In this document: positions 1 through 16,518 of the stretch, piece by piece
Position numbering within the stretch: position 1 is the stretch's first letter
Layout: every line of letters begins with the position of its first letter
DNA from: Planctomycetota bacterium
GTDB lineage: Bacteria > Planctomycetota > PUPC01 > DSUN01
Reading direction: 5' to 3'
Assembly: GCA_016872875.1 (NCBI GenBank)
Contig: VGYW01000149.1
Span: 1 to 17,899 of the forward strand
Length of the DNA stretch: 17,899 nucleotides
Made by a program: the position numbers and the translations under genes
Notes under the pieces: model-generated
Database searches by the model: none
Told to the model about the DNA's origin: nothing
Seen by the model: the letters and a program-made list of their open reading frames with translations, nothing else

Positions 1-228
1 TGGGGCGCCGGCCCGCGGGCCGGGCAGTATCTCTCCCTGGGGGCCAAGAGCCGCGCGCTCCTGCGCGGCAACCTCCAGGCCACCATCGCCGACGTCCGCG
101 CCGTCGCACACCCCGTCCTGCGCCACCGCCTCGTCACAAACTACACCGCGTTGGCGGAGGGGGTGGAGGCGGATGACATCGTGGACAGACTGCTGGAACT
201 CGTGCCCGAGACCCCAAAGGGGAAATGA
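1..228 (+). CDS. MoxR family AAA+ ATPase, C-terminal fragment
   Basis: This is the last 75 residues of a gene that begins upstream of the window. It opens with WGAGPRAGQYLSLGAKSRAL, the conserved start of the MoxR lid region (W-G-x-GPR-x-Q-L-x-x-A-+-A-x-A). It continues with an A-D-V-R-A-V-A-H-PVLRHRL segment and ends in a helix with VDRLLELVP. MoxR proteins are cytoplasmic AAA+ chaperones that work with vWA-domain partners, and the next three genes encode exactly such partners. The Walker A and B motifs lie outside the window. The TGA stop falls inside the first unit of a 7-base repeat array, so the end of the gene and the start of the repeat are fused. Family assignment is secure; the substrate is unknown. 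Confidence 0.93.
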   Translation, partial: WGAGPRAGQYLSLGAKSRALLRGNLQATIADVRAVAHPVLRHRLVTNYTALAEGVEADDIVDRLLELVPETPKGK

Positions 229-310
229 CTAATGACCAATGACCAATGACGCAATGGCTAGACCTGTTTCCTGTCCTGAATTGGTCATTGGGCATTGGGA
301 ATTGGTCATT
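224..310. repeat. Heptamer inverted-repeat element at the MoxR/DUF58 junction
   Basis: The left arm (224-251) is four 7-base units of the type AATGACC (aatgact, aatgacc, aatgacc, aatgacg). The right arm (about 281-308) is ttggtca, ttgggca, ttgggaa, ttggtca, the reverse complement of the same word with small changes. A loop of about 30 bases separates the arms. The MoxR stop TGA (226-228) lies in the first unit. The DUF58 start lies 20 bases past the right arm. Confidence 0.85.
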
Positions 311-327
311 CAGGGGCTTTGTCCGCC

Positions 328-1221: not shown

Positions 1222-1234
1222 CGTGACGAGGGGG

Positions 1235-1321
1235 GATGATTGGATGAATGGATGGATGGATGAAAGACTGGCAGCCGGCTCTCTCTGACATTCATCCACC
1301 CATCCACCCATCCATTCATCC
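1235..1321. repeat. Inverted repeat of GGAT/ATCC words between DUF58 and vWA gene
   Basis: The left arm (1235-1265) is built from GGATGAAT/GGATGGAT words and the right arm (1289-1321) from CATCCACC/CATCCATT words, its near reverse complement. The period here is 4 and 8 rather than 7. An outer pair, CGGAGAGAGAGG (1201-1212, still inside the DUF58 gene) and CCTCTCTCCG (1320-1329), extends the possible hairpin over the DUF58 stop codon. It fills most of the 120-base gap between the two genes. Confidence 0.82.
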
Positions 1322-1328
1322 TCTCTCC

Positions 1329-1334
1329 GAGGGA
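1329..1334 (+). promoter_or_regulatory. Ribosome binding site of the BatA-like gene
   Basis: GAGGGA lies 7 bases before ATG 1342 and just after the right arm of the inverted repeat. This supports ATG 1342 as the start. Confidence 0.7.
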
Positions 1335-1341
1335 CAGTGAG

Positions 1342-3597
1342 ATGGGTTTGTTGTTTCCTGGCATGCTGCTCGGGCTCGTGGGGTTGGCCATTCCGGTGGC
1401 GCTCCACCTGATCGCGCGGCACAAGTACCAGGTCCAGGAGTTCCCCTCCATCCAGCTCCTCCGGGCCGACGAGCGGACCAACGTGTTCGCAATGCGGCTG
1501 GTGGACGTGGGCCAGCTTCTCCTGCGGCTCGCGGTGCTGGCCCTCCTTGTGCTGGCGATGGCCCGGCTTTTCACTGGCTGGGCGCCGTTCGGGCGGGCCG
1601 CGCGCAACCTGGTGGTGGTGGTGGACTGCTCGGCCAGCATGCGGGCGTTGGGCACGGGCGCCGATGGCCGCAGGGCGCCGCTCGTCGCCCTGGCAAAGGC
1701 GAAAGCCGAGGCGCTCCTCCGCGCCATCGCCGCGCCCAGCCAGTGCGCGCTCATTGCCGCGGGGCAGGACGCCGAGAGCGTCGTGCCCCTCCAGCCATCG
1801 CCGCAACGGGCTCTCCACGCCCTTTCGGGCCTCGATGCCGCCGATGGTGCGGGGCGGGGGCTTGTGCGCGCCGTTGCCACAGCTTGCGGCCTGGTGTGGG
1901 GCCGCCGCGAGGCTCGCTCCCAGATCGTAGTGCTCACCGACCTCGCGGCCTCAGCCTTCGAGACGCGGAACAGCGATGACCTGCGGGTTGTGCAGGACGC
2001 GCAGCGCGAGCTCGGCCGCAAGCTCGATATAGTGTTCCTCGACCTCGCGGGCGGCCAGGCCGACAACCTGGCGGTGCTCGACGCCGGCGTGCGCGGCTTG
2101 CGCGCCAAGATGGGCGACGACGCCCGCATCGTGGCCCGCGTGTTCAACAGCGGCGCCGCCGAGCGGAAGGCCAAGCTCCAGCTCGCCGTCGGCGAGCGCC
2201 GCGAGCCGGCCGTCCGGGAGATAGCCCTGCCGCCCGGGGGAGAGGCCGACGTTGGCCTCACCCTCCGCGCCTCCCGTGCCGGCCAGGCGATGGTGGAGGT
2301 GCGGCTCGACGGCGACGACGGCCTGCCCGCCGACAACCGCTTCGCCGTGCCGCTCGACGTTGCCGACGCCCGCCGCGTCCTCATCGTCAGTGGGGCAGGG
2401 GCCACAGGCGAGACGCCTGTGCCACCAAAGGGCACTGAGGTCGGTGGCACAGGCATCTTGCCTGTGACGGCGAAGAGCGAGCAGGAGCCGACGCTCGACG
2501 GCGTCCGCATCCTCCGCTTCGCCCTCAACCCCGGCCGCGAGCTGGGCCAGCCCCACGGCACCGGCATCCACACCACGGCCGTCGCGCCCGAGGCCCTCGC
2601 CGCCCAGCCGCTGAGCAAGTACGACGCCATCGTGCTCCACGGCGTGAGCACGCTCGGCGAACAGGCGCTGAGGGACCTCGACACCTTCGTGCGGCAGGGC
2701 AGGGCGGTGCTCTTCGTCTGTTCGGCCGACACCAATGCGATGAAGTTCAGCCGCACGTTCGCCGCGCTGTCGCCCGCGGAGGTCGGCAACGAGCGGGCGC
2801 TCGACCCGCCAATCGGCATCCGCCACGCCGACAGCCAGCACCCGGTCCTCGCCCCTTTCCGCGACAGGCTCAAGGGCGACCTGACGGCTGTGCGGTTCGC
2901 CGCGCTCCGCGAGCTTCGGCGGCTCGCCCCCGACGCCCGCGCGATGTTCCTGGGCACCGACGGCTCGGTGCTGGCGGCCGAGATGCCCGTGGGCCAGGGC
3001 CGCACCGCGCTCCTGGCCTTCGGCTTCGAGCTCGAACGCGGCAGCCTCGCCCGCACCCGCGTCTTCCCTGCCCTGATGTGGCAACTCGTGGGCTACCTCG
3101 CTGGGGAGCTACGCCCGCGCCGGCCCGATCTCCTCACCGCCGCGCGGCCCGCGGTCCTCGATGTCTCCGAGCCGGGCTTCGCCTTCCTCGACCAGTTGGA
3201 GCTTGCCCCGCTCGCCTCGTCGGAGCCGCCCATGCGGCTCGCCGTAGGACGCGACAGGACGCTGCTGGTGCCTGGCCTGCCCGTGGGCAACTACCTGGTG
3301 CAGAAGCCGTCGGTGGGCGCCGGGCGGCGGGCCGCGGGCGGTCGCCTCCTGGCCGTGAACCACGACCCGCGCGAGAGTCGCACCGTTCGTATCGCGGAGT
3401 CTGAGCTGGCCGGCCTCTTCGGGCAGAGCATGCGGGTGGCAACGGTGGCCGAGCCGCTTGAACTCGAATTGCCAGGCGGCGAGCTCTGGCCGCTGCTGGT
3501 CCTGCTCCTCATCGCGGCCTATGCGGTCGAAGGCGGCGTGGGGTGGCTGCTCAATGCGCGCCGCGAGCGCCAGCGGACCGAAGGAGCCGGGCAATGA
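1342..3597 (+). CDS. BatA-type membrane protein with vWA and GATase-like domains
   Basis: A 751-residue membrane protein. It starts with the aerotolerance-regulator (BatA) N-terminal module: hydrophobic segment at about 3-24, the conserved HLIARHKYQVQEFPSIQLLR block, and a second segment at about 56-77. A vWA domain follows, with NLVVVVDCSASM; D95-C-S-A-S99 fits the metal site DxSxS. IVVLTDLAAS is the later vWA strand. A middle beta-sandwich (about 240-340) leads to a class I amidotransferase-like fold (about 343-465, with YDAIVLHGVS and GRAVLFVCS). No catalytic Cys-His-Glu triad can be assigned. A last membrane segment lies near 715-738 with a basic tail, so the bulk should be extracytoplasmic. 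A repeat insertion occupies residues 354-375. The gene ends in an ATGA overlap with the next, which points to coupled translation. Function in stress tolerance or assembly is inferred from the family only. Confidence 0.92.
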   Translation: MGLLFPGMLLGLVGLAIPVALHLIARHKYQVQEFPSIQLLRADERTNVFAMRLVDVGQLLLRLAVLALLVLAMARLFTGWAPFGRAARNLVVVVDCSASMRALGTGADGRRAPLVALAKAKAEALLRAIAAPSQCALIAAGQDAESVVPLQPSPQRALHALSGLDAADGAGRGLVRAVATACGLVWGRREARSQIVVLTDLAASAFETRNSDDLRVVQDAQRELGRKLDIVFLDLAGGQADNLAVLDAGVRGLRAKMGDDARIVARVFNSGAAERKAKLQLAVGERREPAVREIALPPGGEADVGLTLRASRAGQAMVEVRLDGDDGLPADNRFAVPLDVADARRVLIVSGAGATGETPVPPKGTEVGGTGILPVTAKSEQEPTLDGVRILRFALNPGRELGQPHGTGIHTTAVAPEALAAQPLSKYDAIVLHGVSTLGEQALRDLDTFVRQGRAVLFVCSADTNAMKFSRTFAALSPAEVGNERALDPPIGIRHADSQHPVLAPFRDRLKGDLTAVRFAALRELRRLAPDARAMFLGTDGSVLAAEMPVGQGRTALLAFGFELERGSLARTRVFPALMWQLVGYLAGELRPRRPDLLTAARPAVLDVSEPGFAFLDQLELAPLASSEPPMRLAVGRDRTLLVPGLPVGNYLVQKPSVGAGRRAAGGRLLAVNHDPRESRTVRIAESELAGLFGQSMRVATVAEPLELELPGGELWPLLVLLLIAAYAVEGGVGWLLNARRERQRTEGAGQ
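2403..2466. repeat. Paired palindromes in frame inside the BatA-like gene
   Basis: Two hairpins, CACAGGCGAGACGCCTGTG (2403-2421) and CACAGGCATCTTGCCTGTG (2448-2466), each have an 8-base stem and 3-base loop. Together with flanking CCACC and GGTGG they also form one larger inverted repeat around a 16-base spacer. They are read as TGETPVPP and GGTGILPV and sit just after the first strand (RRVLIVSG) of the GATase-like domain. A near-identical copy lies at 10013-10036. Confidence 0.88.
3581..3586 (+). promoter_or_regulatory. Ribosome binding site deciding the start at 3594
   Basis: AAGGAG lies 7 bases before ATG 3594. This decides against the longer in-frame start at 3543, which would overlap the previous gene by 55 bases and add 17 residues unlike the family. 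Confidence 0.75.
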
Positions 3598-5894
3598 GCG
3601 TGGTCTATTGGCTCCTCGGCCTCGATGCCCCTGGGACGGTGGTGGGCACCACGCGCTGGGGGTTCTGTACCGCTCGGCCCGTCGGCGTCGCAGTGCTGGC
3701 CGCGCTGGGAGTGGTGGCGGCCGCCGTGGCCGCGCTGAACCTCCTGCCGCAGAACGTCGTGCGCTGGCGCACCCGCGTGGCGCTCCTCGCCGTGCGGCTG
3801 GCCGGGTTCGCTCTCCTCGCAGCCATGCTCTGCCAGGTCGAGCTGCGGCTGACCCTCGAGCGCGCGCTGCCGCCCAACGTGGCCGTCCTCACCGACACCT
3901 CGGGCAGCATGGGGCTTCGAGACGCATCGGGCCGGAGCCGGCTCGAGGCCGCGCGCGCCTTCGCCGCCGGCCCCATGGCCGCCCTGGGCAAGCGCGCGAA
4001 TGTCGTGCCCTATGCCCTCGACTGGCGGCTCCGCCCCGACGACGGCTCGGCCACGGCTGAGGGGATGACCCGCCTGATCGCCGCAGTGGAGGATGTCGCC
4101 CGGCGCGAGAGCGACCTCCAGGCGATTGTCCTGCTCACCGACGGCAACGACACGGCGGGGACGCGGAGCAGCCTGGTCGCGCCGCTCCTCGCCTCGCGCG
4201 GGCTGCCCGTCTATCCCGTCGTCTTTGGCAGCGCTGGGGCGCCGAGGGTCGCACGAGTGAAAGTCTCCGAGGCTGCATCGTACGCGCGGCTGGGCGACGA
4301 ATTGCGCCTCACGGCGTCGCTCTCAGCCACAGAGCTTGGCGAGCAAGCCGTCCGCGTGCTCCTCCACGAGGACGGCCGCAAAGAGCCAATCGCGGCGCGC
4401 GAGAACGTCCGCCTGGGCAAGGAGCCCGTCGCGGTGCCCTTCGTTGTGAAGCCGTCGCGGGCAGGCACGCGAACCTATCGCTTCGTCCTGGACGGCGTGC
4501 GGGACGCCGCGAGCGCGCGGCTCCTCGCCTCCGAGCACAAGGTGCAGGTGATTGACGCGAAGATACGCGTGCTGGCGGTGGACATCCCGCGCGACGAGCG
4601 GAAGATCGTCGGCCACTGGCTGGCCCGCGACCCTGTGGTGGAGTTCGCGAGCCTCACGCTTCTGCCCAAGGGCGGCTGGTACGCCCAGGGCGCGCTCCGC
4701 CACAAAGACGTTGCCGACGGCCTGCCCGACCGCGAGGCCGACCTCTACCAGTACGACGTGATCATCCTGGGCGACATCCCGCGCGCCTACTTCCGCGCGG
4801 GCGGGGACGTGACCGAGGCGCGCATGCAGCGGCTCGTGGACTTCGTGGCGCGGCGCGGCGGGGGCCTCGTCACGCTTGGCGGGCAAAGCGTCTACGCCGC
4901 AGGGCAGTACCAGGGCTCGCCGCTGGCCGCCATCCTGCCGTTCGCCGTCGAGCCGGCCCGCCAGCCGCAGGTGCCGCACCCCTTCAAGGCCATCGCCACG
5001 CCGCTGGGCCTGAGCCATCCCGTCATGCAGTTGGCTTGGGAGCCGCAGGCCAACCGCGAGGCCTGGCTCGACCTCCCGACCCTCGACGGCTGCAACCGCG
5101 TCGAGCGCATCAAGCCGGGAGCGACACTCCTGGCAGTCCGGGAAGCTGCTGAGGCCGAGGCTTCGGATCACGCCTCACGCGTCACGCGTCCGGCATCGCT
5201 CCCCGTCATGGCCATCCAGAACGTCGGCAAGGGCAAAGTCCTCTCGCTCGCAATGGACACCACGTGGCGCTGGGAGATGCAGCGGCCGGCGGAGGGCGAT
5301 GACCACTTCCGCCGCTTCTGGGGCAACGCCGTGCGGTTCCTTGCCCCCGACCCGCGCATCGCGCCCAATGCGCCGCAGGTGCTCCGGTACCAGTCCCGCG
5401 CCGCCGTGGGCGAAACGATCACTCTGGCGACCCGCCTGGTTGACCCCGCGTTCCACCCAATCCGCGAGGCCGACCTGCGCGTGGCCGTCACCAGCCCCTC
5501 GGGCAAGGTGCTTCGCATCTATCCGCGTGACGGCCGCGACGCGCCCGGCCTCTACGAGTACAGCGTGGCCCTCAACGAGCCCGGCCCCTGGCAGGTCGCT
5601 GCAACCTTCGGCGGCAAGACGAGCAGCGATGAGATCGTCGCGGGGGAGGGCGACGACGAGCTGGACGACCCCCGCGCCAGGCCCGAGGCAATGGCCGAGC
5701 TTGCGAAGGCCACGGGCGGCCGCGTCTTCACCCCCGACGAGGCGTCTGCGCTTCCCGCCGAGCTGGCCCTCGCCCCGCGCCGCCTCACCACCACCGCCAC
5801 CATCGCCCTCTGGAACCTCCCCGCCACGCTCGTGATCGTTCTCGCGCTCGTAGCCGTAGATTGCTTCATCCGCAAGCGGAGAGGCATGGTATGA
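3594..5894 (+). CDS. Membrane protein with vWA domain and GATase-like domain
   Basis: A 766-residue membrane protein, paralogous in plan to its upstream neighbour. Two hydrophobic segments (about 28-48 and 62-82) are followed by a canonical vWA domain: VAVLTDTSGSMGLRD, with D101-T-S-G-S105 as metal site, and IVLLTDGNDT with D183. Beta-sandwich sequence (about 215-320) leads to an amidotransferase-like domain (about 324-460; YDVIILGDIP, GGGLVTLGG). Residues 596-674 look Ig-like (VGETITLATRLVDPAF). A last membrane segment at about 733-756 ends in a basic tail. The layout puts the vWA and GATase-like parts outside the cytoplasm or on one membrane face. Planctomycete relatives are often annotated as glutamine amidotransferase, but I see no catalytic triad and think a binding or scaffold role is likelier. 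An in-frame repeat codes SDHASRVTRP near residue 525-534. Confidence 0.9.
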   Translation: MSVVYWLLGLDAPGTVVGTTRWGFCTARPVGVAVLAALGVVAAAVAALNLLPQNVVRWRTRVALLAVRLAGFALLAAMLCQVELRLTLERALPPNVAVLTDTSGSMGLRDASGRSRLEAARAFAAGPMAALGKRANVVPYALDWRLRPDDGSATAEGMTRLIAAVEDVARRESDLQAIVLLTDGNDTAGTRSSLVAPLLASRGLPVYPVVFGSAGAPRVARVKVSEAASYARLGDELRLTASLSATELGEQAVRVLLHEDGRKEPIAARENVRLGKEPVAVPFVVKPSRAGTRTYRFVLDGVRDAASARLLASEHKVQVIDAKIRVLAVDIPRDERKIVGHWLARDPVVEFASLTLLPKGGWYAQGALRHKDVADGLPDREADLYQYDVIILGDIPRAYFRAGGDVTEARMQRLVDFVARRGGGLVTLGGQSVYAAGQYQGSPLAAILPFAVEPARQPQVPHPFKAIATPLGLSHPVMQLAWEPQANREAWLDLPTLDGCNRVERIKPGATLLAVREAAEAEASDHASRVTRPASLPVMAIQNVGKGKVLSLAMDTTWRWEMQRPAEGDDHFRRFWGNAVRFLAPDPRIAPNAPQVLRYQSRAAVGETITLATRLVDPAFHPIREADLRVAVTSPSGKVLRIYPRDGRDAPGLYEYSVALNEPGPWQVAATFGGKTSSDEIVAGEGDDELDDPRARPEAMAELAKATGGRVFTPDEASALPAELALAPRRLTTTATIALWNLPATLVIVLALVAVDCFIRKRRGMV
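5166..5193. repeat. In-frame heptamer array (TCACGCG) in the vWA/GATase gene
   Basis: Four 7-base units run in tandem: gatcacg, cctcacg, cgtcacg, cgtccgg. They are read as SDHASRVTRP. No opposing arm is seen nearby. The same word recurs at 12977-13004 in the giant gene. Confidence 0.75.
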
Positions 5895-5896
5895 GC

Positions 5897-6008
5897 ACCC
5901 ATTTCGGATTTCGGATTTCGGATTGCGGATTGAGCTGCGGAGGAGAGGAGTGATGCTGCCTTGACTTCCTCTGAAATCCGCAATCCGCAATCCGCAATCC
6001 GCAATCCC
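5897..6008. repeat. Heptamer inverted-repeat element before the DUF4175-like gene
   Basis: The left arm (5904-5931) is tcggatt three times and then gcggatt. The right arm (5974-6008) is aaatccg, caatccg three times and caatccc, the reverse complement of the left-arm word. The 42-base loop holds a strong Shine-Dalgarno-like tract, GGAGGAGAGGAG (5939-5950), and a TTG at 5961. The element starts 3 bases after the preceding stop codon. Confidence 0.9.
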
Positions 6009-6020
6009 CTGGCGGCGGTC

Positions 6021-7820
6021 ATGGCCGCCGTCAGGGGCTTCGGCCTCTTTCGCAAGCGTTGGGCCGTGGCAGCGGGGCTGGCCTGGTTCGTGATCATCGG
6101 GCCGGGGTCGCTCCTGGCCTGGTTCGCGCTCGACTGGGCGGTGCGGCTGCCCGCGTGGCCGCTCCTGGGCTCCTTCGCGCTCGCCGTGCTCGCCGCGCTG
6201 GCCACGCTCGCGCTCCGAGTTGTCCCGCCCGGCCTCCGACGTGTTCGCATTGAGAAGGAGGCACTCCTGATCGAGTCGCTGCACGGCGGCCTGGACAACC
6301 AGCTCATCGGCGCGCTCCAGCTCGGCCATGAGGTGGCCGAGGCAGAGGGGGCGAGGGACGAGGGGCGAGGGGCGAGGGGGCTGGGGTATGCAGAGGGCCT
6401 CGTGGTCGCACTGGTGGAGCGCACGGCGCGGGTGGTGGACGAGATGAACGTCCGTCGCCTGCTCGACCTGCGCCGCGCGAGGCGATTGCTGCGCGGCGCG
6501 GCTGCCACGGCCCTCGCGTGCGTGCTCTGCCTGGTTCTTGCCCGCGGCGCGGTGATGGCACGCATCGAGCGGCTGCGCGACGCCTGGGCCGCCGCCCTCG
6601 ACAGCCTCTTCCCCGTGACCCTCGTGGCATACCCGGGCGACGTGGCCGTCGTGCGCGGCCGGCCAGTGACGCTCCGCGTCGAGGCCAAGGGCGCTCGCCG
6701 CCGCGCCGTGACCCTTGTCTGCACCGACGCCGGGACGAAGCAGCCGCGGCACCACCCACTCGAACTCAGCGAGCGCAAGGCGTCGTTCACGGTTCCAAAG
6801 GCCGACGAGTCGTTCACGTATCGGTTCGACTACGCCGGGCGGAAGAGCGCGGAGCACACGGTGACGGTGGGCGACCTGCCGACGGTGAGCGCCATCCACT
6901 ACGAGCTGGGCTACCCCGCCTACACGGGGCAGGCGCCGCGCACCCTCGTCGGCTACGTCGCGCGGCTCCAGGGCCTGGTGGGCACCGACGTGCTCGTGAG
7001 CTTCGCCGCCACGACTGACCTCCACCCCGACCACTGCCGCGTGGAGTGGCTCGACGGCTCGTGGACCCAGGTCTCCGTCAACGGGCGGTTCGGCCACTTC
7101 TCGGTCGCCATTGCCCGCCCCGACCGCGCGACTCTCCACCTCACGGGCGCCTGCGGCCCGGGCTTCGAGATGGAGCGGCCGCTCTCCTTCGAGATCGCCA
7201 CGCAAGCCGATGATGCCCCAACCGTGCAGGTGCTGCTGCGGAACCGCAAGCTCACGATGATGGCCGAGGAGGCCGCCGCCTTCGCCCTGGGCTGGGTGGC
7301 CGAGGACGACTTCGGGGTGGCAGAGGTGACGCTCGACTACAAGGCCGAGGGGCTGGACCCGCTCCTCGGGCGGCCGGTGCGCCAGGGCTCAGTGTCGCAG
7401 CGCTTCGACCCGCCGCGCGACCGCGTGCGGGGCAGGTTCGCCGACCTCTTCAAAGGCCTCAGCCCGCCCCTCGAGCCCGGCGACCGCATCACGCTGAACG
7501 TGGCGGCCCGCGACAACAACAGCGAGACCGGCCCGCGGACCGGCCGCGCCCAGCCCGTCGAGATCGTGATCGTCCGCCCCGACCTTGCGGCCTTCGCCGA
7601 GAAACGCTTCGGCTTCGATGCTCAGGCCCTTCTCGGCGGCCTTGTGAGGATCAAGCGCGAGACCGACCTCCTCGCCGAGCCGGTCCGCACCGTCCGCACC
7701 GAGCCCAAGCACGAGATCGCTAGGCACGACCTCAAGGCGCGCGTGGCTGACGAAGCCTGGCCCAGCGGCTCGGAGGACGCCGTCGGCGACTACTTCAGGC
7801 TTCTCTCCGGAGCGGAGTGA
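6021..7820 (+). CDS. DUF4175-like membrane protein
   Basis: A 599-residue protein with a basic N-terminus (FRKR), two hydrophobic segments (about 14-38 and 44-67), a soluble helical stretch, and a third hydrophobic segment (about 155-178). The rest is beta-rich: VTLVAYPGDVAVVRGRPVTLRV (about 196-217), AIHYELGYPAYTG, then DDFGVAEVTLDY (about 429-440) and PPLEPGDRITLNVAARDNN (about 481-499). These last motifs match DUF4175-type proteins found beside DUF4159 and vWA genes. Those proteins are often much longer with a helical, charged C-terminus; this one stops soon after. I chose ATG 6021 because homology-like sequence begins there, but it lacks a good ribosome site. TTG 5961, 10 bases after GGAG, is the alternative and would add 20 residues coded by the repeat. 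A G-rich repeat codes residues 108-122. Confidence 0.82.
   Translation: MAAVRGFGLFRKRWAVAAGLAWFVIIGPGSLLAWFALDWAVRLPAWPLLGSFALAVLAALATLALRVVPPGLRRVRIEKEALLIESLHGGLDNQLIGALQLGHEVAEAEGARDEGRGARGLGYAEGLVVALVERTARVVDEMNVRRLLDLRRARRLLRGAAATALACVLCLVLARGAVMARIERLRDAWAAALDSLFPVTLVAYPGDVAVVRGRPVTLRVEAKGARRRAVTLVCTDAGTKQPRHHPLELSERKASFTVPKADESFTYRFDYAGRKSAEHTVTVGDLPTVSAIHYELGYPAYTGQAPRTLVGYVARLQGLVGTDVLVSFAATTDLHPDHCRVEWLDGSWTQVSVNGRFGHFSVAIARPDRATLHLTGACGPGFEMERPLSFEIATQADDAPTVQVLLRNRKLTMMAEEAAAFALGWVAEDDFGVAEVTLDYKAEGLDPLLGRPVRQGSVSQRFDPPRDRVRGRFADLFKGLSPPLEPGDRITLNVAARDNNSETGPRTGRAQPVEIVIVRPDLAAFAEKRFGFDAQALLGGLVRIKRETDLLAEPVRTVRTEPKHEIARHDLKARVADEAWPSGSEDAVGDYFRLLSGAE
6343..6384. repeat. In-frame heptamer array (GGCGAGG) in the DUF4175-like gene
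   Basis: Six 7-base units run in tandem: cagaggg, ggcgagg, gacgagg, ggcgagg, ggcgagg, gggctgg. They are read as EGARDEGRGARGLG and interrupt a helical region (GHEVAEA...YAEGLVVALVER). No opposing arm is seen nearby. Confidence 0.78.
7814..7817 (+). promoter_or_regulatory. Ribosome binding site of the DUF4159 gene
   Basis: GGAG overlaps the end of the preceding gene and lies 5 bases before ATG 7823. A GTG at 7817, overlapping the stop as GTGA, is a possible alternative start that would add two residues. Confidence 0.55.
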
Positions 7821-7822
7821 AC

Positions 7823-8623: not shown

Positions 8624-8629
8624 GACAAG

Positions 8630-11600
8630 ATGAAGCCTCTTTCAATCGTCCTCGTCCTCGTCGTCGTCCTCGTCCTCGAAACCCTTGCGGGCGGGGCCGA
8701 GGTCGAACTGCGCCTGGTGGCCCACGACCAGCCCGACCTGACGGTTGACAAGCTTGAGCGGCAGCGGCCCATCACCAACATCGTCCCCACCGAACGCGGG
8801 ATGGAGACGGTCAAGGTCGGCCTCGACCTCGTCTGCTGGGCGCGGAACGTGCTCCTCGACGGCGAGCCGGTCTTCGAGCGCTACCACGAGAAGAAGTACA
8901 TCGGCCGCGTGCCGGTCGCCCGGGCCACGCTCAAGCCCGGCCCGCACACCCTCTGGCCAGGCGACCACGTGTTCACCGTGGACAAGGACGGCAAGGTGGC
9001 CACAGCCGACCCTGAGCTGGCCGTGGACGGCCAGGTGGTGCGGATCAAGTGCTACCCGGTCACGGTGCGGGCCTTCCGGGCCAATCCCGACGAAGGCGAC
9101 CTGCCGATGACGATGCGGGTCACGCCCCTGCCCGACCTCACGATTCGTGAGGCAGATGACCACGAGAAGAACGTCCCGACGAAGAAGGGGGAATCGAGCA
9201 AGGCGCGCGAGCTGCTGCCGGTCTTCGACAAGTTCGCCCCGCTCACGATCTGGTTGCCAGCGAACAAGGCGGGCAAGGGCTACATCGCTCACCCCCTCGG
9301 CCTCACGTTCCACTTGGGGCCTGAGGGGGTCAAGCCCGGCGCCGGCGGCGGCCAGAGCGTCGAGGGGCTTCGCGTCGAGCGAGGCACCATCGAGGTGCCG
9401 CTTTATGGCTTCCCCGTCGAAGGACCGGTGGGCGGCAAGCTCGTCGTCCCTGGCGTCGAGCAATTCGTCTGGGGCGGCCACGACAAAGGCCGCAAGTTCC
9501 TCACCAACTGGTATCCGAGGCAGCATCCGTACAGCATCCAGCTCTCGGAGGAGGGGCCGACGCTCGAGGTGTCGGGCGACCTGCGCGCGCTGCCTTTCAA
9601 GAGCCTGCGAATGGACGTGCCGGACAAGGCGGCCGGCGTGCCCCGCGTCGTCGTCGTCGAGTCGGCCACGCGACACCTCAGCCCCGGCGGCACGCTCAAT
9701 GCGCGGGTGCGTGCCGCTGATGCCTCTGCTCTCATTGTGGCTCCGGGATTCGCACAACTAAGGCCGTACGACGGCAGCCAATGGACGGACCTCAAGCTTG
9801 AGGCCGGCCAGGATGGCGGCGTGAAGGTGGCAATCGGCGAAGTGCCCGATGGCGTGTATCGCCTGCGTCTGGGCATCCCCTCTCTCTTCACCGACCAATG
9901 GGTCTCCGTCACGCGCAAGCGCCCTGTGGGGCTTGGCCTGTTCACCCAGCGGGGCCGCGACGCCTTCTTCCGCGGCGAGGCATTCTGGATCGGCCTGGGT
10001 ATCATCTCCATCGGTGGCACAGGCATCCTGCCTGTGGGCTCGCCTGTCGAGGCAGACCTTGTGGATTCGACCGGCAGGCGCTTGCCCCTCCTGCGCGAGA
10101 AGGCGGCCAAGGCCATCGAGAGGCGCGAGAGCTTCATCATCCGCGTGGACGCCGCGGCGAGCCGCGCCCTCGCACCAGGCCGCTGCCGCGTCGAGGCGAA
10201 AGTCGGCGAGCACGCCGCCCGGCCGCTCGCGCTCGACATCGTGGACCCCACGCCCCGCACCCACTTCGCCAACGTGCTCTACGGCAAGTACAACGTCATG
10301 GGCGAGCAGTACCAGCGGGTGCTGCGCACGGGGGAGGGCGCGGAAGAGCTGGCCCGCGAGATTGCCGCGATGGGCTACAACACCTTCATCGGCATGGCCT
10401 ACGACATCAGCCGCGTGTCGCGCCGCGACGCCGACCTCGAGCAGCTCGTCCGCGAGCGGCCTGAGCTCGGCCCAGCCGAGAGCTACTATCAGCCGAGCGG
10501 ACGCGACCGCTTCCTCAACGCCTGCGTCCGCCACAACCTGGCCTTCTACGAGAACGTGTTCACCTACAACGACACCATGCTGCCGCGCGAGCCTAAGACC
10601 CTCGACGCCTGCGAACGCTACATCAGCCTCGAGACGGCCGCCGTGCGGCACAGCCCGGCGCTCAAGGGCCTCTGCCTCTACGACGAGTTCTACGACACTG
10701 CCGACACGGGCACGGCGATGTCGCAGATTTTCCTCAAGGCCCAGGAGGTGGCCTTTCGCGAGAAGCACAAGGGCACGGCGAGCGCCGACGCGCTGAAGGC
10801 CCTCGACCGCTTCGTCGGCCGCCCGGCAAGCCAGCGGCGGCCAGAGGACCTTGCCGCCTTCCGGGCCTGGGCCGAGCACATGGACGCCTACTGGCGCGAC
10901 TTCTCGGCCCGCATGTCCGCCGCCGCAAAGGCCGTCATGCCCGCCGCGCGGAACCTCACCCTCCAGCGCTTCTGGGGCGGCAACGGCGGCAACATCGCGC
11001 CAAACGGCACGCCCGACGACGCCTTCGCCGGCCTCGACATCGCCGCCTGCGTGATGTACAAGGACGGCGGCTACGGAGACCGCCCCGTCTTCGCGCCCAT
11101 GCAGGCCGACGTGATGCGCGTCCGAGACGGACTGCCCGTGTGGACTCAACTGCACACCTTCGGCTCGCCCCCGCTCTTCAACGACCACATCCTCCGCCAA
11201 GCATTCTTCGCCCTGTCACAGAAGGTGGACGGCTTGGCCTTCTTCACGATCCCGCACGACTACGAGCACCCCCAGGCGATTGACAACCGCGACGTCGTGC
11301 GCGACATCACCGACAAGCTCTGCACCCGCTACGGCGACCTTTTCACCAAGCTACAGCGGGGCCACCGCAAGGTCGCCGTCTACTACTCGCGCCAGGCCGA
11401 CCACCTTGCCTCGCGCAAGCCCGAGAACTTGTCGTGCGCATGCGAGGGGCTCTGGGTCGCCTGCACGCGGGCCGGCTTCCCCGCCGACTTCCTCTACGAC
11501 CAGCAGATTCGCGAGGGGCGGGGGATGGACTACGAGGTCGTCTTCGCCCCCGGCTTCACCATCGAGGGCGAGACGCCGCCCGACCTCCTCGCCGCGCTCG

Positions 11601-14600
11601 CGCGCCTGGTGAACGCCGGCAAAACGGTCGCCGTCGAGCGCGCCAGCAAGCTGCCCATCGAGGGGATCGTCCGCCTCGATTCCGACCTCGACGAGTACGA
11701 CGACAAGCTCGGCGGCTCATTCCCACGCAACATTGATTTCGAGTTCGAGTCGGTCTTCGACCAGACCGAGGAGATGACGAGACTCGTTCGCGCCTTCCTT
11801 GCGAAGCGCATCGCGCCCGCCGCCGAGCACAACCTGCTCGTCGGCCCCGACTGGCTCCGCTGCGGCAAGGCTGAGTACCTGGTCGTGTCTAACTTCGCCC
11901 CCACTAGATTCGCGGGCCTCTACAAGACCCTCTATCAGGCCCCCGACACGCCGACCCTCCGCTTCCCCAAGCGCCCGCCCGTCTGCTACGACGTGCTGGA
12001 GATGAAGCGCACCGAAGTCAGGACAGATTCGGCAACTATGACGCTCCAGGCCGACCTCCGGCACTATCCGGGCAAGATATACGCCTTCCTGCCCGCCGAA
12101 ATCGGCAGCGTGGCGCTCGCCGCGCCCGCCGCCGTCGCCGCCGGCTCCGATCTCAACTACCAAGTGACCATCCAGGACAAGTCAGGCGCGGCCATTGACG
12201 CCGGCTTCCCGCTGGAGGTCTCGCTCGTTCCGCCGGCCCCGCAGGCTTCCGGGCCGCCCATCTTCCGGGCCGCAGCGCCCGAGCACCGCGGGACCATCCC
12301 GCTGCCGGCGAACGTGCCCGCAGGCACGTGGAAGCTGCGCGTGCGTGAGCTGATCAGCGGCGCCGCGGCGGAGGCGGCCATCGAAGTCAAGCCCGGCAAG
12401 GCGCCCGCCGCCACGCTCGATGCCCGCACCGTGTGGGCCGGCGATGCGGAGCGAATCCGCGAGTTCCTGGCGGCCAAAGGCCCCGTCACCATCGCCGTGG
12501 ACGATGAGCAGCCCTGGGTGCGCCCGCACGCAGAGGCCCTCGCCAGGGCGCTCGCCGCGCGCGGGCGCGCGGCGAAGGTGGCACCCGTCTCCCAGGCCAT
12601 CCGCCTGCCCGCGGACTGGGACGACCAGGCGCCCACCCTCGACGGCGCCCGCCTCTGGCGCGGCAACCTGGTTGACCCCGGCTTGTTCGTTGATGCCCCG
12701 CTCATCCTGCTCGGCAAGCGATTCGAGAACCGGCTCATCGAGGCCCTCGTGCGCCGCGACGTCTTGGCCACGCCCGTCTCCGCCAGCTTCCCAGGCCCTG
12801 GCCGAGCGGTCGTCGCCTGGGTCCGGCGCGGCTTCTCGAACGATCACGACACCATCGCAATCCTCGCCAACGATGGCGATGGGCTTTCTGAGGGGATCGG
12901 GGCACTGTGGGACGCGGGACGCGGGACGCGGGACGAGGTGCAGAAGAAGCCCGAAGCGGTCGGCCAGAGCGCTCCTGTCACGCGTCACGCGTCACGCGTC
13001 ACGGATAGCTTCCGTGATATGATCAGCCGCGAGGACCTCGTCCGCACGATTGACGTTGACGCCGCCTCTGGTCGCGCGCTCGTCGGCACCAACGGCTTTG
13101 GCCACAACCTCTTCTGCTTCGGCCGCGACGGCAAGCTCCTCTGGAAGCAGTTCCTCCCCGAGCACAACGTCTACTTCGCCCGCTGGTACGACGCGGGAAA
13201 GCGTGTGGTGGCGGCGACGGGCCGGGGCTTCTTCGTCTTCCTGCTCGACGGCGCCGACGGGCGCGTGCTCAAGCGCTTCGCGGCGACCGAGTGGCCCGAC
13301 TTCCACGGCGGCTTCAACACCTACCAGGAAGGCGCAATCAACACCGAGGTCCAGATAGCCGTCAATCCCCCCCTGCGGCAGATCCTCATCGGCGGACGCA
13401 CCGGGCTGATAGCCGTGGACTTCGATGGGCGGAAGATGTGGTATCGCGACAAGGCCGAGGCCATCGCGTCGTACCCCGCCGAGGCCGTGCAGTGGGCCGG
13501 CGCCGCCTTCGGCAAGTCAGCTCACGTCGGCGACTTCGCCCTCAGCCCCGACGGCAGCCGCCTCGCCCACGGCGAATACCAGGTCTGCGGCTCCACCCGG
13601 CTCGACCCCGAGCACATCGCAAACGTCTGGCGCTACGTGCCGATGCTCCTCGACGCCCGCACGGGCGCCGTGCTCGCCGAGAACACCGACGACCCCGGCA
13701 ACCAGGTGAACCCCAGCGGCTGGCACACCGCCTGGCCCGCGCACTCCCCGACGCCCTGGATTCACACCCAGGGCCTCGCCTTCCCCCTCCTGGCCGATGG
13801 CAAGCGCGGGCCACTTGTCTCCTTCGATGGCCGCTGGCTCAAGGATGGCGGACGCCTTGTGATGAAGCCCACATGCGTCGAGCGCTTCGCGCCCGACGGG
13901 AAAAGCCTTTGGACCGCCGCGTCCGACCGCATCTTCGTCCCCGGCCTCGACTGCGTGAGCAGCGACGAGATGCGCCTCTATCGCTGTGACCGCGACGGCC
14001 TCATTAAGTGCGTTGACCTTGCGACGGGGCGGGCGCTCTGGGAGCACAAGCTCCCCTTCCCCGCCACGCTGTGCGCGACGGCGGATGGCCTGGTGGCCGG
14101 CGCGCAGAACGGGGCCGCTGTGCGTCTCGACGCTAACGGCAAGGTGGTTTGGCAGTCGCGGCTGCGCGAGCACCACGAGGTGCCGGGCAGTGACTACCCG
14201 GACTACATCCGCGCTGCGCTGGCCCGCGACCCCGATTCGACCGCCGAGCTCTTCCCTGTGGGGGAGGACAAGCCCGGCGAATACGATGGCGTGCTGCGCA
14301 TGGGCATCGAGCAACTGGCCAAGAAATGGAAGGAATTCCGCTTTGCGCCCGGCCAGCTCGGCACCCGGTCGCTCCAGCGCAAGGTGGTCCCATCGGCTAC
14401 ATACCTGCTCGAGTTCCGCTACTGCGTAGAGGATCGCAACACGCGGCTGGTGGCCGGCGCACTGCTGAAGGGCGCGAAGGAGACGCTCACGGCGTCGAAG
14501 TTCGCTGGCAGGCCCGGCGAATGGGCCTTCGGGCGCCTGGCGGTGAAGACGCTGGCCGACACGCAGGCCATCGAGGTCGGCTTCGAGGCCGAGGGCGGGG

Positions 14601-16393
14601 CCGTGCTGGTGGACGACGCGAGCTTCCGCACCATCCGCTTCCCGTCGGCCAACCTCCTCGCCAATGCCGAGCTCCATGCTGTCGAGCCGACGTTCGTCCG
14701 CGACATCCGCGTCCAGTACAGCCGCATTCCGCCGAGCCTCGAGGAGAAGCTCCGCAGCCGCAACCGCGTGGCCGTCCTCAAGCAGGGCCTCGTCTCCTCC
14801 GCCACGCGCTTCACCCAGGAGCAGGCGTTCCTGCACAACGGCCGCCTCGACGACATCGGCCCCGTCTGGTTCTACCAGCCCGACGACGCGGGCTTCAGCA
14901 TCGTCCTCACCCGCGCCGCCTGGGTCTCGCACCTCGTCCTCTACCTGAACAACGCGACGCCCGACAACGCCTACCGCACGATCAGCATCCTGGCGAACGA
15001 CATGGAGAAACGCATCCCCGTGGCGGTCGCGCTCGTGCGGGGCAACCGGCGGCGGTTCGTCGTCGTCCACTTCCCGAAGCTGCTGCACACCGATTCGCTC
15101 AAGGTGCTGCCCGGCCTGCACGGCTCGCGCAAGGAGTGCCTCACCGAGATCGAGGTCTACGGCCCCCCCGGCGGCCCCGAGATGGCCGGGGCGGGGAAGC
15201 GGTTCGCCGACGAGCCGGAAGCGACGCCGATGTTCATGGGCGCGCCGTCGCATGTCCCGGGAAAGCTCCCTGCTGACCTCGCCGGCGAGTTCGTCGAGCT
15301 TGGCCGCGTGCGGATCGGCGCGCCGGCCTACAACGTCAGCGGCACCGTGGCCGGCGGCGCCTTCGCCTACGGCGAGGCCGGCGGCACCATCCGCTCGCTC
15401 CAGGTCAAGGAGCCCGACGCGCCGCGGGGCGGAGATCCGAAATCCGAAATCCGAAATCCGAAATGGAAAGGCGAGGCGGGGCCGGCCTGGGCAATCGGCA
15501 CAGTGACCCCCACCACCACGCCGGCCCGCTATGCGGGGCGGCTCATTGTGGGCACGGCCGACGGCAAGCTCCACGCCGTCGCCGACAACGGCATGCGCCT
15601 CTGGTCGTATCAGACGGGCGGCCGTGTCTACTCCGCGCCCGTGCCCGACGGCGACGAGGTCTACTTCGGCTCCGACGACGGCCGCCTCTACAAGCTCGAT
15701 GTGGATTCGGGCATCCTGCTCTGGGAGTTCCCCACGGGCGGCAGGATCCGCAGCGCGCCCGCGCTCGCCGGGGGACTGGTCTTCTTCGCCTCCTGGGATG
15801 GCTTCCTCTACGCCGTTGACGCCGACAAGGGCACGCTGGCCTGGAAAGCGCAGGTGGCCAGGTTCACACGCTCCAGTCCTGCCGTGCTTGTGGGCGGGGC
15901 GTCTCCGCCCCGCGTCTTCATCGGCGACGAGGATGGCCGCATGCACTGCTTCGAGGCCGCCAGCGGCAAACCGCTCTGGTCCGCTGACCTCGGCGGCACA
16001 ATCTCAACCTGCCCGGCCGTGGCCGCCGATGGCGTGCTCTTCGCCAACGACCAGGGCGATGCGGCACTCGTCGCGCACGACGGCGCCGTGCGCTGGAAGC
16101 GCGCCCTCGGCGCGCGCGTGACCGGCCAGCCCCTCGCCACGCAGAGCCAGGCCATCGTGCCCACGGAGAGAGGCGTGCTCGCGCTGCGGCGCGCCGACGG
16201 CCAGCCCGACCCCCGCTTCGTGCCGCCCGAAAGCCCGGGCAAGGTCATCTCCGCCGTGCCCTGCGGCGACAAGCTCTTCCTCATCGCCGCCCAGGCCGAC
16301 GTGGATTTCCGCAACACGCCGCGAACCTATGTGACCTATGAGGGCGCCTCCATCGTGTGGGGGCCGAAGCTGGAGAAGCCAAGTGCAAAGTGA
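8630..16393 (+). CDS. Giant exported protein: glycosidase-like barrel with two PQQ-like beta-propellers
   Basis: A 2587-residue secreted protein in one unbroken frame. A signal peptide (core at about 7-16, cleavage near GGA-E) leads to beta-sandwich regions (about 24-540). Residues 544-890 look like a TIM barrel: AREIAAMGYNTFIGMAYD, GLCLYDEFYD with D685/E686 as possible acid residues, LPVWTQLHTFG, DGLAFFTIPHDYEHP. A GATase-like segment follows (about 910-1000; DYEVVFAPGFTIEGETPPDLL), as in GH42-type enzymes. Ig-like sequence lies at about 1162-1260. A PQQ-like propeller spans about 1466-1850 (FCFGRDGKLLWKQ, GLIKCVDLATGRALWEHKL). A galactose-binding-like stretch covers about 1898-2181. The second propeller is about 2301-2571 (VYFGSDDGRLYKLDVDSGIL). 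The propellers are structural; I see no quinoprotein enzyme signature. Carbohydrate breakdown or surface binding is a guess. Repeats occur at residues 462-469, 1427-1459, 2269-2280 and 2423-2428. Confidence 0.88.
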   Translation: MKPLSIVLVLVVVLVLETLAGGAEVELRLVAHDQPDLTVDKLERQRPITNIVPTERGMETVKVGLDLVCWARNVLLDGEPVFERYHEKKYIGRVPVARATLKPGPHTLWPGDHVFTVDKDGKVATADPELAVDGQVVRIKCYPVTVRAFRANPDEGDLPMTMRVTPLPDLTIREADDHEKNVPTKKGESSKARELLPVFDKFAPLTIWLPANKAGKGYIAHPLGLTFHLGPEGVKPGAGGGQSVEGLRVERGTIEVPLYGFPVEGPVGGKLVVPGVEQFVWGGHDKGRKFLTNWYPRQHPYSIQLSEEGPTLEVSGDLRALPFKSLRMDVPDKAAGVPRVVVVESATRHLSPGGTLNARVRAADASALIVAPGFAQLRPYDGSQWTDLKLEAGQDGGVKVAIGEVPDGVYRLRLGIPSLFTDQWVSVTRKRPVGLGLFTQRGRDAFFRGEAFWIGLGIISIGGTGILPVGSPVEADLVDSTGRRLPLLREKAAKAIERRESFIIRVDAAASRALAPGRCRVEAKVGEHAARPLALDIVDPTPRTHFANVLYGKYNVMGEQYQRVLRTGEGAEELAREIAAMGYNTFIGMAYDISRVSRRDADLEQLVRERPELGPAESYYQPSGRDRFLNACVRHNLAFYENVFTYNDTMLPREPKTLDACERYISLETAAVRHSPALKGLCLYDEFYDTADTGTAMSQIFLKAQEVAFREKHKGTASADALKALDRFVGRPASQRRPEDLAAFRAWAEHMDAYWRDFSARMSAAAKAVMPAARNLTLQRFWGGNGGNIAPNGTPDDAFAGLDIAACVMYKDGGYGDRPVFAPMQADVMRVRDGLPVWTQLHTFGSPPLFNDHILRQAFFALSQKVDGLAFFTIPHDYEHPQAIDNRDVVRDITDKLCTRYGDLFTKLQRGHRKVAVYYSRQADHLASRKPENLSCACEGLWVACTRAGFPADFLYDQQIREGRGMDYEVVFAPGFTIEGETPPDLLAALARLVNAGKTVAVERASKLPIEGIVRLDSDLDEYDDKLGGSFPRNIDFEFESVFDQTEEMTRLVRAFLAKRIAPAAEHNLLVGPDWLRCGKAEYLVVSNFAPTRFAGLYKTLYQAPDTPTLRFPKRPPVCYDVLEMKRTEVRTDSATMTLQADLRHYPGKIYAFLPAEIGSVALAAPAAVAAGSDLNYQVTIQDKSGAAIDAGFPLEVSLVPPAPQASGPPIFRAAAPEHRGTIPLPANVPAGTWKLRVRELISGAAAEAAIEVKPGKAPAATLDARTVWAGDAERIREFLAAKGPVTIAVDDEQPWVRPHAEALARALAARGRAAKVAPVSQAIRLPADWDDQAPTLDGARLWRGNLVDPGLFVDAPLILLGKRFENRLIEALVRRDVLATPVSASFPGPGRAVVAWVRRGFSNDHDTIAILANDGDGLSEGIGALWDAGRGTRDEVQKKPEAVGQSAPVTRHASRVTDSFRDMISREDLVRTIDVDAASGRALVGTNGFGHNLFCFGRDGKLLWKQFLPEHNVYFARWYDAGKRVVAATGRGFFVFLLDGADGRVLKRFAATEWPDFHGGFNTYQEGAINTEVQIAVNPPLRQILIGGRTGLIAVDFDGRKMWYRDKAEAIASYPAEAVQWAGAAFGKSAHVGDFALSPDGSRLAHGEYQVCGSTRLDPEHIANVWRYVPMLLDARTGAVLAENTDDPGNQVNPSGWHTAWPAHSPTPWIHTQGLAFPLLADGKRGPLVSFDGRWLKDGGRLVMKPTCVERFAPDGKSLWTAASDRIFVPGLDCVSSDEMRLYRCDRDGLIKCVDLATGRALWEHKLPFPATLCATADGLVAGAQNGAAVRLDANGKVVWQSRLREHHEVPGSDYPDYIRAALARDPDSTAELFPVGEDKPGEYDGVLRMGIEQLAKKWKEFRFAPGQLGTRSLQRKVVPSATYLLEFRYCVEDRNTRLVAGALLKGAKETLTASKFAGRPGEWAFGRLAVKTLADTQAIEVGFEAEGGAVLVDDASFRTIRFPSANLLANAELHAVEPTFVRDIRVQYSRIPPSLEEKLRSRNRVAVLKQGLVSSATRFTQEQAFLHNGRLDDIGPVWFYQPDDAGFSIVLTRAAWVSHLVLYLNNATPDNAYRTISILANDMEKRIPVAVALVRGNRRRFVVVHFPKLLHTDSLKVLPGLHGSRKECLTEIEVYGPPGGPEMAGAGKRFADEPEATPMFMGAPSHVPGKLPADLAGEFVELGRVRIGAPAYNVSGTVAGGAFAYGEAGGTIRSLQVKEPDAPRGGDPKSEIRNPKWKGEAGPAWAIGTVTPTTTPARYAGRLIVGTADGKLHAVADNGMRLWSYQTGGRVYSAPVPDGDEVYFGSDDGRLYKLDVDSGILLWEFPTGGRIRSAPALAGGLVFFASWDGFLYAVDADKGTLAWKAQVARFTRSSPAVLVGGASPPRVFIGDEDGRMHCFEAASGKPLWSADLGGTISTCPAVAADGVLFANDQGDAALVAHDGAVRWKRALGARVTGQPLATQSQAIVPTERGVLALRRADGQPDPRFVPPESPGKVISAVPCGDKLFLIAAQADVDFRNTPRTYVTYEGASIVWGPKLEKPSAK
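8643..8679 (+). repeat. Dispersed repeat coding signal-peptide core, copy 2
   Basis: The second copy of the CCTCGT/CGTCGT tract; 30 bases (8650-8679) are identical to 7846-7875. It is read as IVLVLVVVLVLE and forms the hydrophobic core of the signal peptide. Both copies lie at the same distance from the start codon, within a few bases. Confidence 0.88.
10013..10036. repeat. Palindrome in frame inside the giant gene (GGTGILPV copy)
   Basis: GGTGG is followed by CACAGGCATCCTGCCTGTG (hairpin at 10018-10036). The 24 bases differ at one position from 2443-2466 and are read in the same frame as GGTGILPV. It sits in what looks like a hairpin turn of a beta-sandwich (before VEADLVDSTGR). Confidence 0.85.
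12909..13004. repeat. Two-arm heptamer element in the linker before the first propeller
   Basis: The left arm (12909-12936) is gggacgc three times and then gggacga. The right arm (12977-13004) is gtcacgc three times and then gtcacgg. Reverse-complemented, the two words match at six of seven positions. The element codes residues 1427-1459 (DAGRGTRDE and VTRHASRVTD) and lies in the linker between the glycosidase-like half and the first propeller. Confidence 0.85.
15434..15468. repeat. In-frame heptamer array (AATCCGA) before the second propeller
   Basis: Five 7-base units run in tandem: gatccga, aatccga three times, aatggaa. They are read as DPKSEIRNPKWK. The word belongs to the same family as the element at 5897-6008. 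It lies in the linker just before the second propeller. Confidence 0.82.
15894..15913. repeat. GC-rich perfect hairpin inside the second propeller
   Basis: GCGGGGCG and CGCCCCGC form an 8-base stem with loop TCTC. It is read as GGASPPR between two propeller strands (SSPAVLV and VFIGDEDG), where relatives would have a short turn. Confidence 0.65.
16372..16375 (+). promoter_or_regulatory. Ribosome binding site supporting the GTG start at 16383
   Basis: GGAG lies 7 bases before GTG 16383, inside the end of the giant gene. It is the only well-spaced site for the downstream reading frame. Confidence 0.55.
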
Positions 16394-16518
16394 GAAAGGC
16401 AAAAGGCAAAAGGCAAAAGGCAAAAGGAGACCTGGAGGAGCGGAGCGGCTCCGCCTCCCGGCCTCTTCGCTTTCCCACTTTTGCCTTTTGCCTTTTGCCC
16501 TTTGCCTTCTCCCTTCTC
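16381..16518. repeat. Heptamer inverted-repeat element across the giant-gene stop
   Basis: The left arm (16381-16429) is seven units: aagtgca, aagtgag, aaaggca four times, aaaggag. The right arm (16477-16518) is acttttg, ccttttg twice, ccctttg, ccttctc twice, the reverse complement of the left word with drift. A small GC-rich palindrome, GCGGAGCGGCTCCGC (16440-16454), lies in the loop. The giant-gene stop TGA (16391-16393) is in the second unit and the GTG start of the next gene in the first. Confidence 0.88.

Follow-up and report, generated by a model that had tools for sequence, protein, structure and literature searches.

A broad class of dispersed heptamer arrays, with arms single or facing an inverted arm, in a planctomycete contig, other bacteria, and phages

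The repeat elements in a 17,899-nucleotide stretch of a Planctomycetota genome (contig VGYW01000149.1; the whole stretch is called the window here) belong to a broad class of heptamer arrays scattered through genomes; in this class an arm stands singly or faces an inverted arm. Templated spread of arms plus later slippage is the best explanation that we can offer and fits most of the facts, at a probability that we put slightly below even. Existing arms would serve as templates during DNA repair or recombination at other tolerated sites, these being gene edges, protein linkers, and phage operons; new arms would take the standard length and the genome's current word, old arms would be overwritten, and local slippage would then adjust the number of units and let the word drift. 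The observations that bear on this reading are the excess of period 7, the length mode, the burst of one word, word replacement, presence or absence at orthologous sites, inverted pairing, and a one-unit indel. Beyond the window itself, the data on the class come from genomes of relatives and of other phyla.

A preliminary description of the window had listed seven heptamer words and four inverted pairs; Tandem Repeats Finder (TRF) recovered all seven words in place together with the four pairs, all of which fold as RNA hairpins. A tolerant lag scan found 12 arrays at lag 7, compared with one at lag 4, two at lag 6, two at lag 8, one at lag 9, and none at lags 5 and 10 to 15, while order-2 Markov resamples of the window contained a mean of 0.035 lag-7 arrays (maximum, 1; n = 200); in a scan for exact runs, eight period-7 arrays are visible. 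One of the 12, a GGGCGGC array at 3315 to 3339, was taken for compositional coding sequence. The claim of a constant period needs one exception because an 8-bp two-arm element is built alike at 1234 to 1314, and period 9 is a second minority elsewhere. The arms and single arrays are as follows.

224..256, + strand: 5' arm of AATGACC, about 4.6 units (TRF and tolerant scan)
280..310, + strand: 3' arm of inverted AATGACC-type units, TTGGTCA/TTGGGCA; TRF word ATTGGGC (TRF)
1234..1264, + strand: 5' arm of the 8-bp two-arm element, GGATGAAT (TRF)
1293..1314, + strand: 3' arm of the 8-bp two-arm element, CATCCACC (TRF)
5168..5190, + strand: single TCACGCG array in the ORF at 3543-5894 (TRF)
5901..5931, + strand: 5' arm of ATTTCGG (GGATTTC/GGATTGC), 6 bp past the end of the ORF at 3543-5894 (TRF and exact scan)
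5975..6007, + strand: 3' arm of AATCCGC, inverted (TRF and exact scan)
6345..6386 (TRF 6348-6379), + strand: single GGGGCGA array, given as GGCGAGG in the preliminary description, in the ORF at 5961-7820 (TRF and tolerant scan)
12909..12935, + strand: 5' arm of GGGACGC in a variable linker of the PQQ-repeat protein (ORF 8630-16393) (TRF and exact scan)
12977..13003, + strand: 3' arm of GTCACGC, inverted, one mismatch per unit (TRF and exact scan)
15435..15464, + strand: single ATCCGAA array, in frame (peptide KSEIRNPK), in the PQQ-repeat protein (TRF)
16395..16427, + strand: 5' arm of AAAGGCA, directly after the stop codon of ORF 8630-16393 (TRF)
16478..16518 (TRF 16478-16508), + strand: 3' arm of CTTTTGC (TRF and tolerant scan)

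The elements at 224, 1234, 5901, and 16395 lie between genes and those at 5168, 6345, 12909, and 15435 inside them, in a window that has DUF58, BatA, DUF4159, and PQQ-repeat genes and whose protein relatives make the contig look planctomycete; by eye, the arm at 224 to 256 overlaps an apparent stop codon at 226 to 228. Predicted RNA hairpins are strongest by z score for the AAAGGCA/CTTTTGC pair (-73.5 kcal/mol; z, -7.4), followed by the ATTTCGG/AATCCGC pair (-56.5 kcal/mol; z, -6.6) and the AATGACC pair (-38.4 kcal/mol; z, -5.5). The GGGACGC/GTCACGC element at 12906 to 13006 is the weakest of the four (-50.1 kcal/mol; z, -2.6); its arms differ by one base per unit, and equal folding was reached in 3 of 200 shuffles. 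The octamer element at 1234 to 1314 has a z score of -3.7. Three of the 7-bp pairs are G-first and one, AATGACC, is C-first.

The excess of period 7 that the preliminary description had proposed to look for genome-wide is strong, and is carried by many words, in relatives and in other phyla. We counted tolerant lag-7 arrays in part samples of four genomes, including G164, the nearest genome found for the window (one of 6 matched among 392 planctomycete genomes, at about 74% DNA identity), and G002, the genome of the acidobacterial MAG SZAS-13. Period 7 is the main period in all four, with words that are partly different (108 arrays against 43 at the runner-up lag in G002, 110 against 30 in G164, 22 against 8 in G411, and 29 against 4 in G409); an order-1 Markov control for G164 and G002 gave 1 lag-7 array against the 218 observed. 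Viral contigs contain the word AATCCGV in 118 stretches and genome contigs in at least 119, with Acidobacteria, Planctomycetes, Verrucomicrobia, Chloroflexi, Bacteroidetes, Gemmatimonadetes, Deltaproteobacteria, Nitrospirae, and a Staskawiczbacteria genome among the 80 matches listed; the word is also found in 39 of 392 planctomycete genomes, compared with 2 for the reversed control. Other words make up 74 of the 191 exact period-7 arrays in the AATCCGV viral stretches (near-duplicate loci included), and an independent check of 37 further viral loci yielded 92 lag-7 arrays, the next most frequent lag being 14 with 10. A plasmid search with one element gave no match. Minority period-9 arrays accompany the heptamers, with 8 in the phage locus L047 and 43 in G002.

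One word is extremely abundant in a single genome. An AAATCCG 19-mer has 1,801 (893 + 908) overlapping matches in G002, which are not array counts, and 0 to 24 in each of 39 other genomes; the reversed-word control has none, and in a 365-kb sample of G002 the AAATCCG word makes up 52 of 74 exact period-7 arrays. This burst bears on a rival account in which slippage, the published proposal according to the citations in PMC4692102 and PMC4679880, acts independently at each site: short direct repeats spaced 7 bp apart would be expanded, a step of 7 bp suiting the polymerase, and fold-back template switching would produce the second arm. We consider it unlikely as the whole account, given that one word at hundreds of G002 sites is hard to derive from independent local seeds and that words recur across phyla.

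Arm length points the same way in one respect and the opposite way in another. Over 953 tolerant arrays, a pool that includes viral and genome-contig loci chosen for the AATCCG word and several near-duplicate viral loci (identical elements were counted once in the polarity count only, and not in pooled lengths or exact-array counts), length peaks at 32 nt (158 arrays), flanked by 31 nt (92) and 33 nt (113). Thus, 363 of the 953 measure 31 to 33 nt, or about 4.5 units, with side peaks one unit shorter and one unit longer. Exact AAATCCG arms in G002 behave similarly (41 of 83 at 32 to 33 nt), and words other than AATCCG peak near 30 to 33 nt in G164, G002, and the viral and genome loci, the peak being less sharp in G411 and G409, from which the samples were smaller; in the independent viral set the peak is blurred, with 23 of 92 arrays longer than 60 nt. 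A mode near 4.5 units is not the falling distribution that independent slippage would give, but the quantization of lengths as 7k plus 3 to 4 is what slippage between direct repeats of 3 to 4 nt would be expected to leave.

Pairing is frequent but not required. Adjacent arrays match as inverted copies of one word in 14 of 27 pairs in G164, 22 of 31 in G002, 6 of 9 in G409, and 4 of 6 in G411, compared with 5.5%, 17.3%, 8.5%, and 8.3% of random pairs, respectively; for 187 of 293 arrays in the four genomes no inverted arm lies within 300 bp, and median length is 32 for single and paired arrays alike. Paired arms might instead be kept as RNA hairpins that stabilize mRNA or couple genes, with selection setting both length and pairing. 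The z scores down to -7.4 favor such a role, as does the AAAGGCA element, whose arms are nearly identical across about 74% DNA identity while its loop diverges; the many unpartnered arrays of the same median length, and the arrays inside coding sequence, count against it. Further, a pair at locus L342 of G002 flanks a terminator-like stretch, and its arms would therefore not share one transcript. On balance we regard selection for RNA hairpins as very unlikely to be the general cause.

The two arms of a pair are not equivalent. Among 148 distinct two-arm elements, 125 have a G-richer 5' arm, 20 have a C-richer one, and 3 show no difference; counted per distinct word the polarity is 41 G-first, 10 C-first, and 4 tied (p = 1.5e-5). 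In the independent viral set, all six words other than those used to fetch the loci are G-first, although two of the six lie only one base from such a word; of three elements that carry words used for fetching, one is G-first and two are C-first. A related asymmetry appears at gene edges, taken as the edges of ORFs of at least 90 aa and not from a gene caller: in G002 the left edge carries 12 W and 1 W' arrays and the right edge 12 W' and 4 W, although exceptions are many (13 W' arrays on the left edge in the genome loci and 18 in the viral loci). This G-first polarity is not explained by copying alone, and it stays unaccounted for unless the 3' ends of DNA are where arms arise. A telomere-like process would supply such ends, with a template-carrying polymerase adding a G-rich heptamer to DNA 3' ends and capped ends being rejoined; the polarity is the geometry of fused telomeres, and a short template would fit both the preferred length and the 7k plus 3 to 4 quantization. 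We nevertheless hold it to be highly improbable, since arms that stand singly show the polarity too, with respect to gene edges, a result that would not be expected from end-capping, and since the enzyme searches described below found no enzyme for it.

The words themselves had been described as free in sequence, and many different ones do occur, but they are not wholly free: GATT or GAGT is present in 18 of 57 distinct first-arm words of two-arm elements, compared with 7.1 expected and a maximum of 16 in 300 letter shuffles. The G-quadruplex was set aside as a general cause because many words, by eye, have no G run.

At orthologous sites arrays are found in some lineages and are missing in others, and the word can differ in place. 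We placed 14 G002 array sites in G409 or G411, giving 21 comparisons classed by eye from gaps and lag scores; 5 carry another word (one of them an octamer), 3 carry the same word or a one-base variant, and 13 have no comparable array. A different heptamer word was found at only 3 of the 14 slots, plus one 8-mer, and these counts include L354:8542 in G411, read by eye as a different word with a lag-7 score of 9.0 and a best lag of 14. Two sites, L342:5610 and 5893, are one shared interval (G411 lag-7 score, 9.5) and were classed as having no comparable array, as was L356:2686 in G411, where a 1,492-nt gap has a period-9 signal. Downstream of one gene the word is GGATTTC in G002, GGAAAAC in G409, and made of GTCCGTT-like units in G411; inside moaA, a gene named from its sequence, it is AATCCGA in G002 and CCAAAAA in G409. 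The preliminary description had asked for gain or loss at orthologous sites, and arrays were indeed found present or absent, with words differing at the same site. Where G002 has the 5893 arm, the relatives have, by eye, a two-unit heptamer-like stretch of the kind from which independent slippage could start.

The same sites speak to a mobile palindromic element of the REP or MITE type, moved by a transposase and ending in heptamer arms. Such an element would be in keeping with the high copy number, the many copies between genes, and the paired arms, and there is a near-empty site in G409 (L356:16762) and a small number of loops that by eye look related (SZAS-13 loci L144, L183, and L180). However, the loops of 25 two-arm elements in the G002 sample matched only within the same cluster or through the arm word itself, and are otherwise unrelated, which also led us to reject the view that all arms are single copied elements including their loops. 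Direct repeats flanking 52 G002 arrays, taken singly, are not in excess (4 nt, 3 against 3.4 expected; 5 nt or longer, 0 of 52 against a shuffled mean of 1.1 at 5 nt). At L342, moreover, the 5610 and 5893 arms flank a 250-bp stretch that is partly alignable with G411 and G409 (alignment scores of 42 and 46, compared with 27 and 30 for the best of 200 shuffles); judged from the alignment, this interval appears to be old intergenic sequence with a terminator-like part, and the two arms can therefore be separate additions. We thus rate a mobile element as quite unlikely. REP and REPIN palindromes, which are short, dispersed between genes, and associated with RAYT transposases, differ from the class described here, which has tandem heptamer arms, no fixed palindrome, and no association with Y1 transposases; a conserved palindrome including the loop, common to copies, was not found among the 25 G002 two-arm elements.

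That the arrays stem from one generating mechanism and not from one ancestral repeat, as first proposed, is borne out in part: a process acting on many words fits better, and one ancestral repeat was set aside in view of the differing words, sites, and loops, but no enzyme could be tied to the process. Neither of the linked enzymes that had been suggested, a transposase or a reverse transcriptase, was tied to the arrays when Y1_Tnp and retron reverse transcriptases were each compared with one word. Across 40 genomes, Y1_Tnp counts (10 in G002; range, 0 to 16) do not track the 19-mer burst, which sets aside a linked Y1 transposase and further weakens the case for a mobile element. G002, G409, and G164 each have a reverse transcriptase (L418, L419, and L420) with the type XIII retron reverse transcriptase as its best PADLOC model, and this enzyme is the sole RVT_1 match in G002 and in G409. 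RVT_1 had no match in the G411 draft, despite the arrays there, nor in G410. Among the 392 planctomycete genomes, a retron reverse transcriptase (E value of 1e-30 or less, which may include other retron types) is present in 15 of 39 with the AATCCGV word and in 93 of 353 without it (Fisher's exact test, p = 0.13); this test is weak because it covers one word of many and the cutoff admits other retron types. A linked reverse transcriptase was set aside on this lack of tracking, and both the test and the G411 draft count against telomere-like addition. Against templated spread we count that no donor-recipient event was directly seen, that no enzyme was identified, that gain and loss are unpolarized, that another heptamer word stands at only 3 of the 14 slots, that the length peak blurs in the independent viral set, that copying leaves the polarity unexplained, and that in one case, the AAAGGCA element, arms look conserved and not labile.

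Phages carry the arrays too. Head genes are among their sites, and L047, a contig with the gene order terminase, portal, maturation protease, major head protein, and head-tail adaptor, has ten period-7 arrays with several words. Four loci related to L047 (57 to 62% identity) have no period-7 arrays, one of them having five period-8 arrays and another three period-9 arrays, and a further related locus at 62% identity has eight period-7 arrays; a trans-acting process in some hosts would be the simplest reading of the phage arrays. Slippage finds support in phage contigs L066 and L116, which are 98.7% identical and in which one array differs by exactly one 7-nt unit, a single case. As a long shot that extends telomere-like addition, many bacteria and their phages might share a trans-acting enzyme with a changeable seven-base template that lays down a near-fixed 4.5 units or so of a G-rich heptamer on exposed DNA 3' ends; rejoining of the capped ends would leave inverted G-first arms, and the word would record the template that a lineage had at the time. 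In another pair of phages about 98% identical, L019 has a GATTGCG array at a diverged site (13000 to 13080) where L107 has a short repeat with AATCCGC units.

The window's own sites also differ among relatives. In the linker that holds the 12909 to 13003 element, the homolog P0003 has the same 3' word (common peptide, TRHASRVT), P0009 and P0010 have NPKSETRN-like or NPRPETRNPKPET peptides, and P0008 and P0005 have other repeated peptides; the words of P0005, P0008, and P0009 were inferred from peptides, and the linker DNA in G164 (contig C177, the apparent source of P0010) reads CGAAACC. P0001, P0002, P0004, and P0005 have the array at 15435, whereas P0003, P0006, and the remoter members of the 60 relatives listed lack it. 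The AAAGGCA element occupies the same place in G164, with an unalignable loop between its nearly identical arms. Its 3' arm (16478 to 16518) is in frame with the gene that follows, where it encodes FCLLPFALCLLP in the window and LCLLPFALCLLP in G164, and in the two species alike it may form that gene's signal-peptide core (window 16478 to 16560; L249 reverse strand), the start codon being putative. The TCACGCG word and the octamer word of 1234 to 1314 are found again in G164, which also has CCAGATT and CCGACAA arrays at spots without an array in the window, the CCAGATT array lying in frame in P0010. On the same G164 contig (L249), a compound of a CCAGATT-type array and a CCGACAA array occurs twice, about 6.8 kb apart, and P0010 reads the first copy in frame.

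Several parts of this pattern are already published, namely the heptamer excess, the convergent pairs of Xanthomonas, and the word shifts in one Nostoc hairpin. The remark in the preliminary description that no named mechanism was known holds only in part: over-representation of heptameric simple sequence repeats in bacteria, with slippage proposed, was reported by Mrazek in 2007, as cited in PMC4692102 and PMC4679880. We share with that work the excess of period 7, and a change in unit number was seen once (L066/L116); as cited there, the Mrazek work is given without mention of arms, polarity, length, or word turnover. PMC4692102 describes Xanthomonas GGGAATC repeats as dispersed, mostly intergenic, and mostly of four units, nearer the 5' neighboring gene, and variable between related species, with 70 convergent pairs among the 186 repeats of one species and 75 among the 183 of another; unlike the arrays studied here, they are of one word, were studied as G-quadruplexes, and have no word replacement reported in the passages on them. 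In PMC4476775, the P6b stem of the Nostoc trnL intron carries Class I (TDNGATT) and Class II (NNTGAGT) heptamers, with repeated independent shifts from II to I. It resembles our elements in having heptamer stem-loop arms at one site and GATT and GAGT cores that match common words here, and inverted heptamer arms with the word replaced at a fixed site were found here in a few cases; it differs in being confined to one intron locus, where the stem of the intron accounts for it, and not genome-wide. None of the elements in the window is in a trnL intron, their positions being within protein-coding ORFs or between them. Beggiatoaceae TAACTGA arrays, as described in PMC4679880, consist of two to six copies and mostly precede start codons, in taxa that are scattered, but they are of one word and inverted pairs are nearly absent (one indirect repeat).

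What looks new is the joint set of rules: arm length, G-first polarity, a word shared within a pair, sites that persist while words change, a burst in a single lineage, and placement in phage head genes. A search of titles and the starts of abstracts, with subscription journals largely beyond its reach, found no paper describing the class by these rules together. Slippage is the only cause that we found proposed for the bacterial heptamer excess, and the joint rules turn that excess into a question for comparison of close strains. The arrays are also a source of new coding sequence, in the form of in-frame peptides such as KSEIRNPK and perhaps a signal peptide.

Some minor repeats of the window deserve record. 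The octamer elements of one word family, at 1234 to 1314 in the window and at L255 and L262 in G164, have by eye a common inner CTGACAT(T)CATCCA in the two species. A palindromic repeat, GGTGGCACAGGCATC(T/C)TGCCTGTG, has by eye two in-gene copies (2398 to 2470 and 10012 to 10040; peptide, GGTGILPV) and belongs to a repeat family other than the heptamers, likewise placed in proteins. Finally, two consecutive genes open with alike hydrophobic leaders (LVVVLVL) derived from TCGTCC repeats at 7842 to 7874 and 8646 to 8678.
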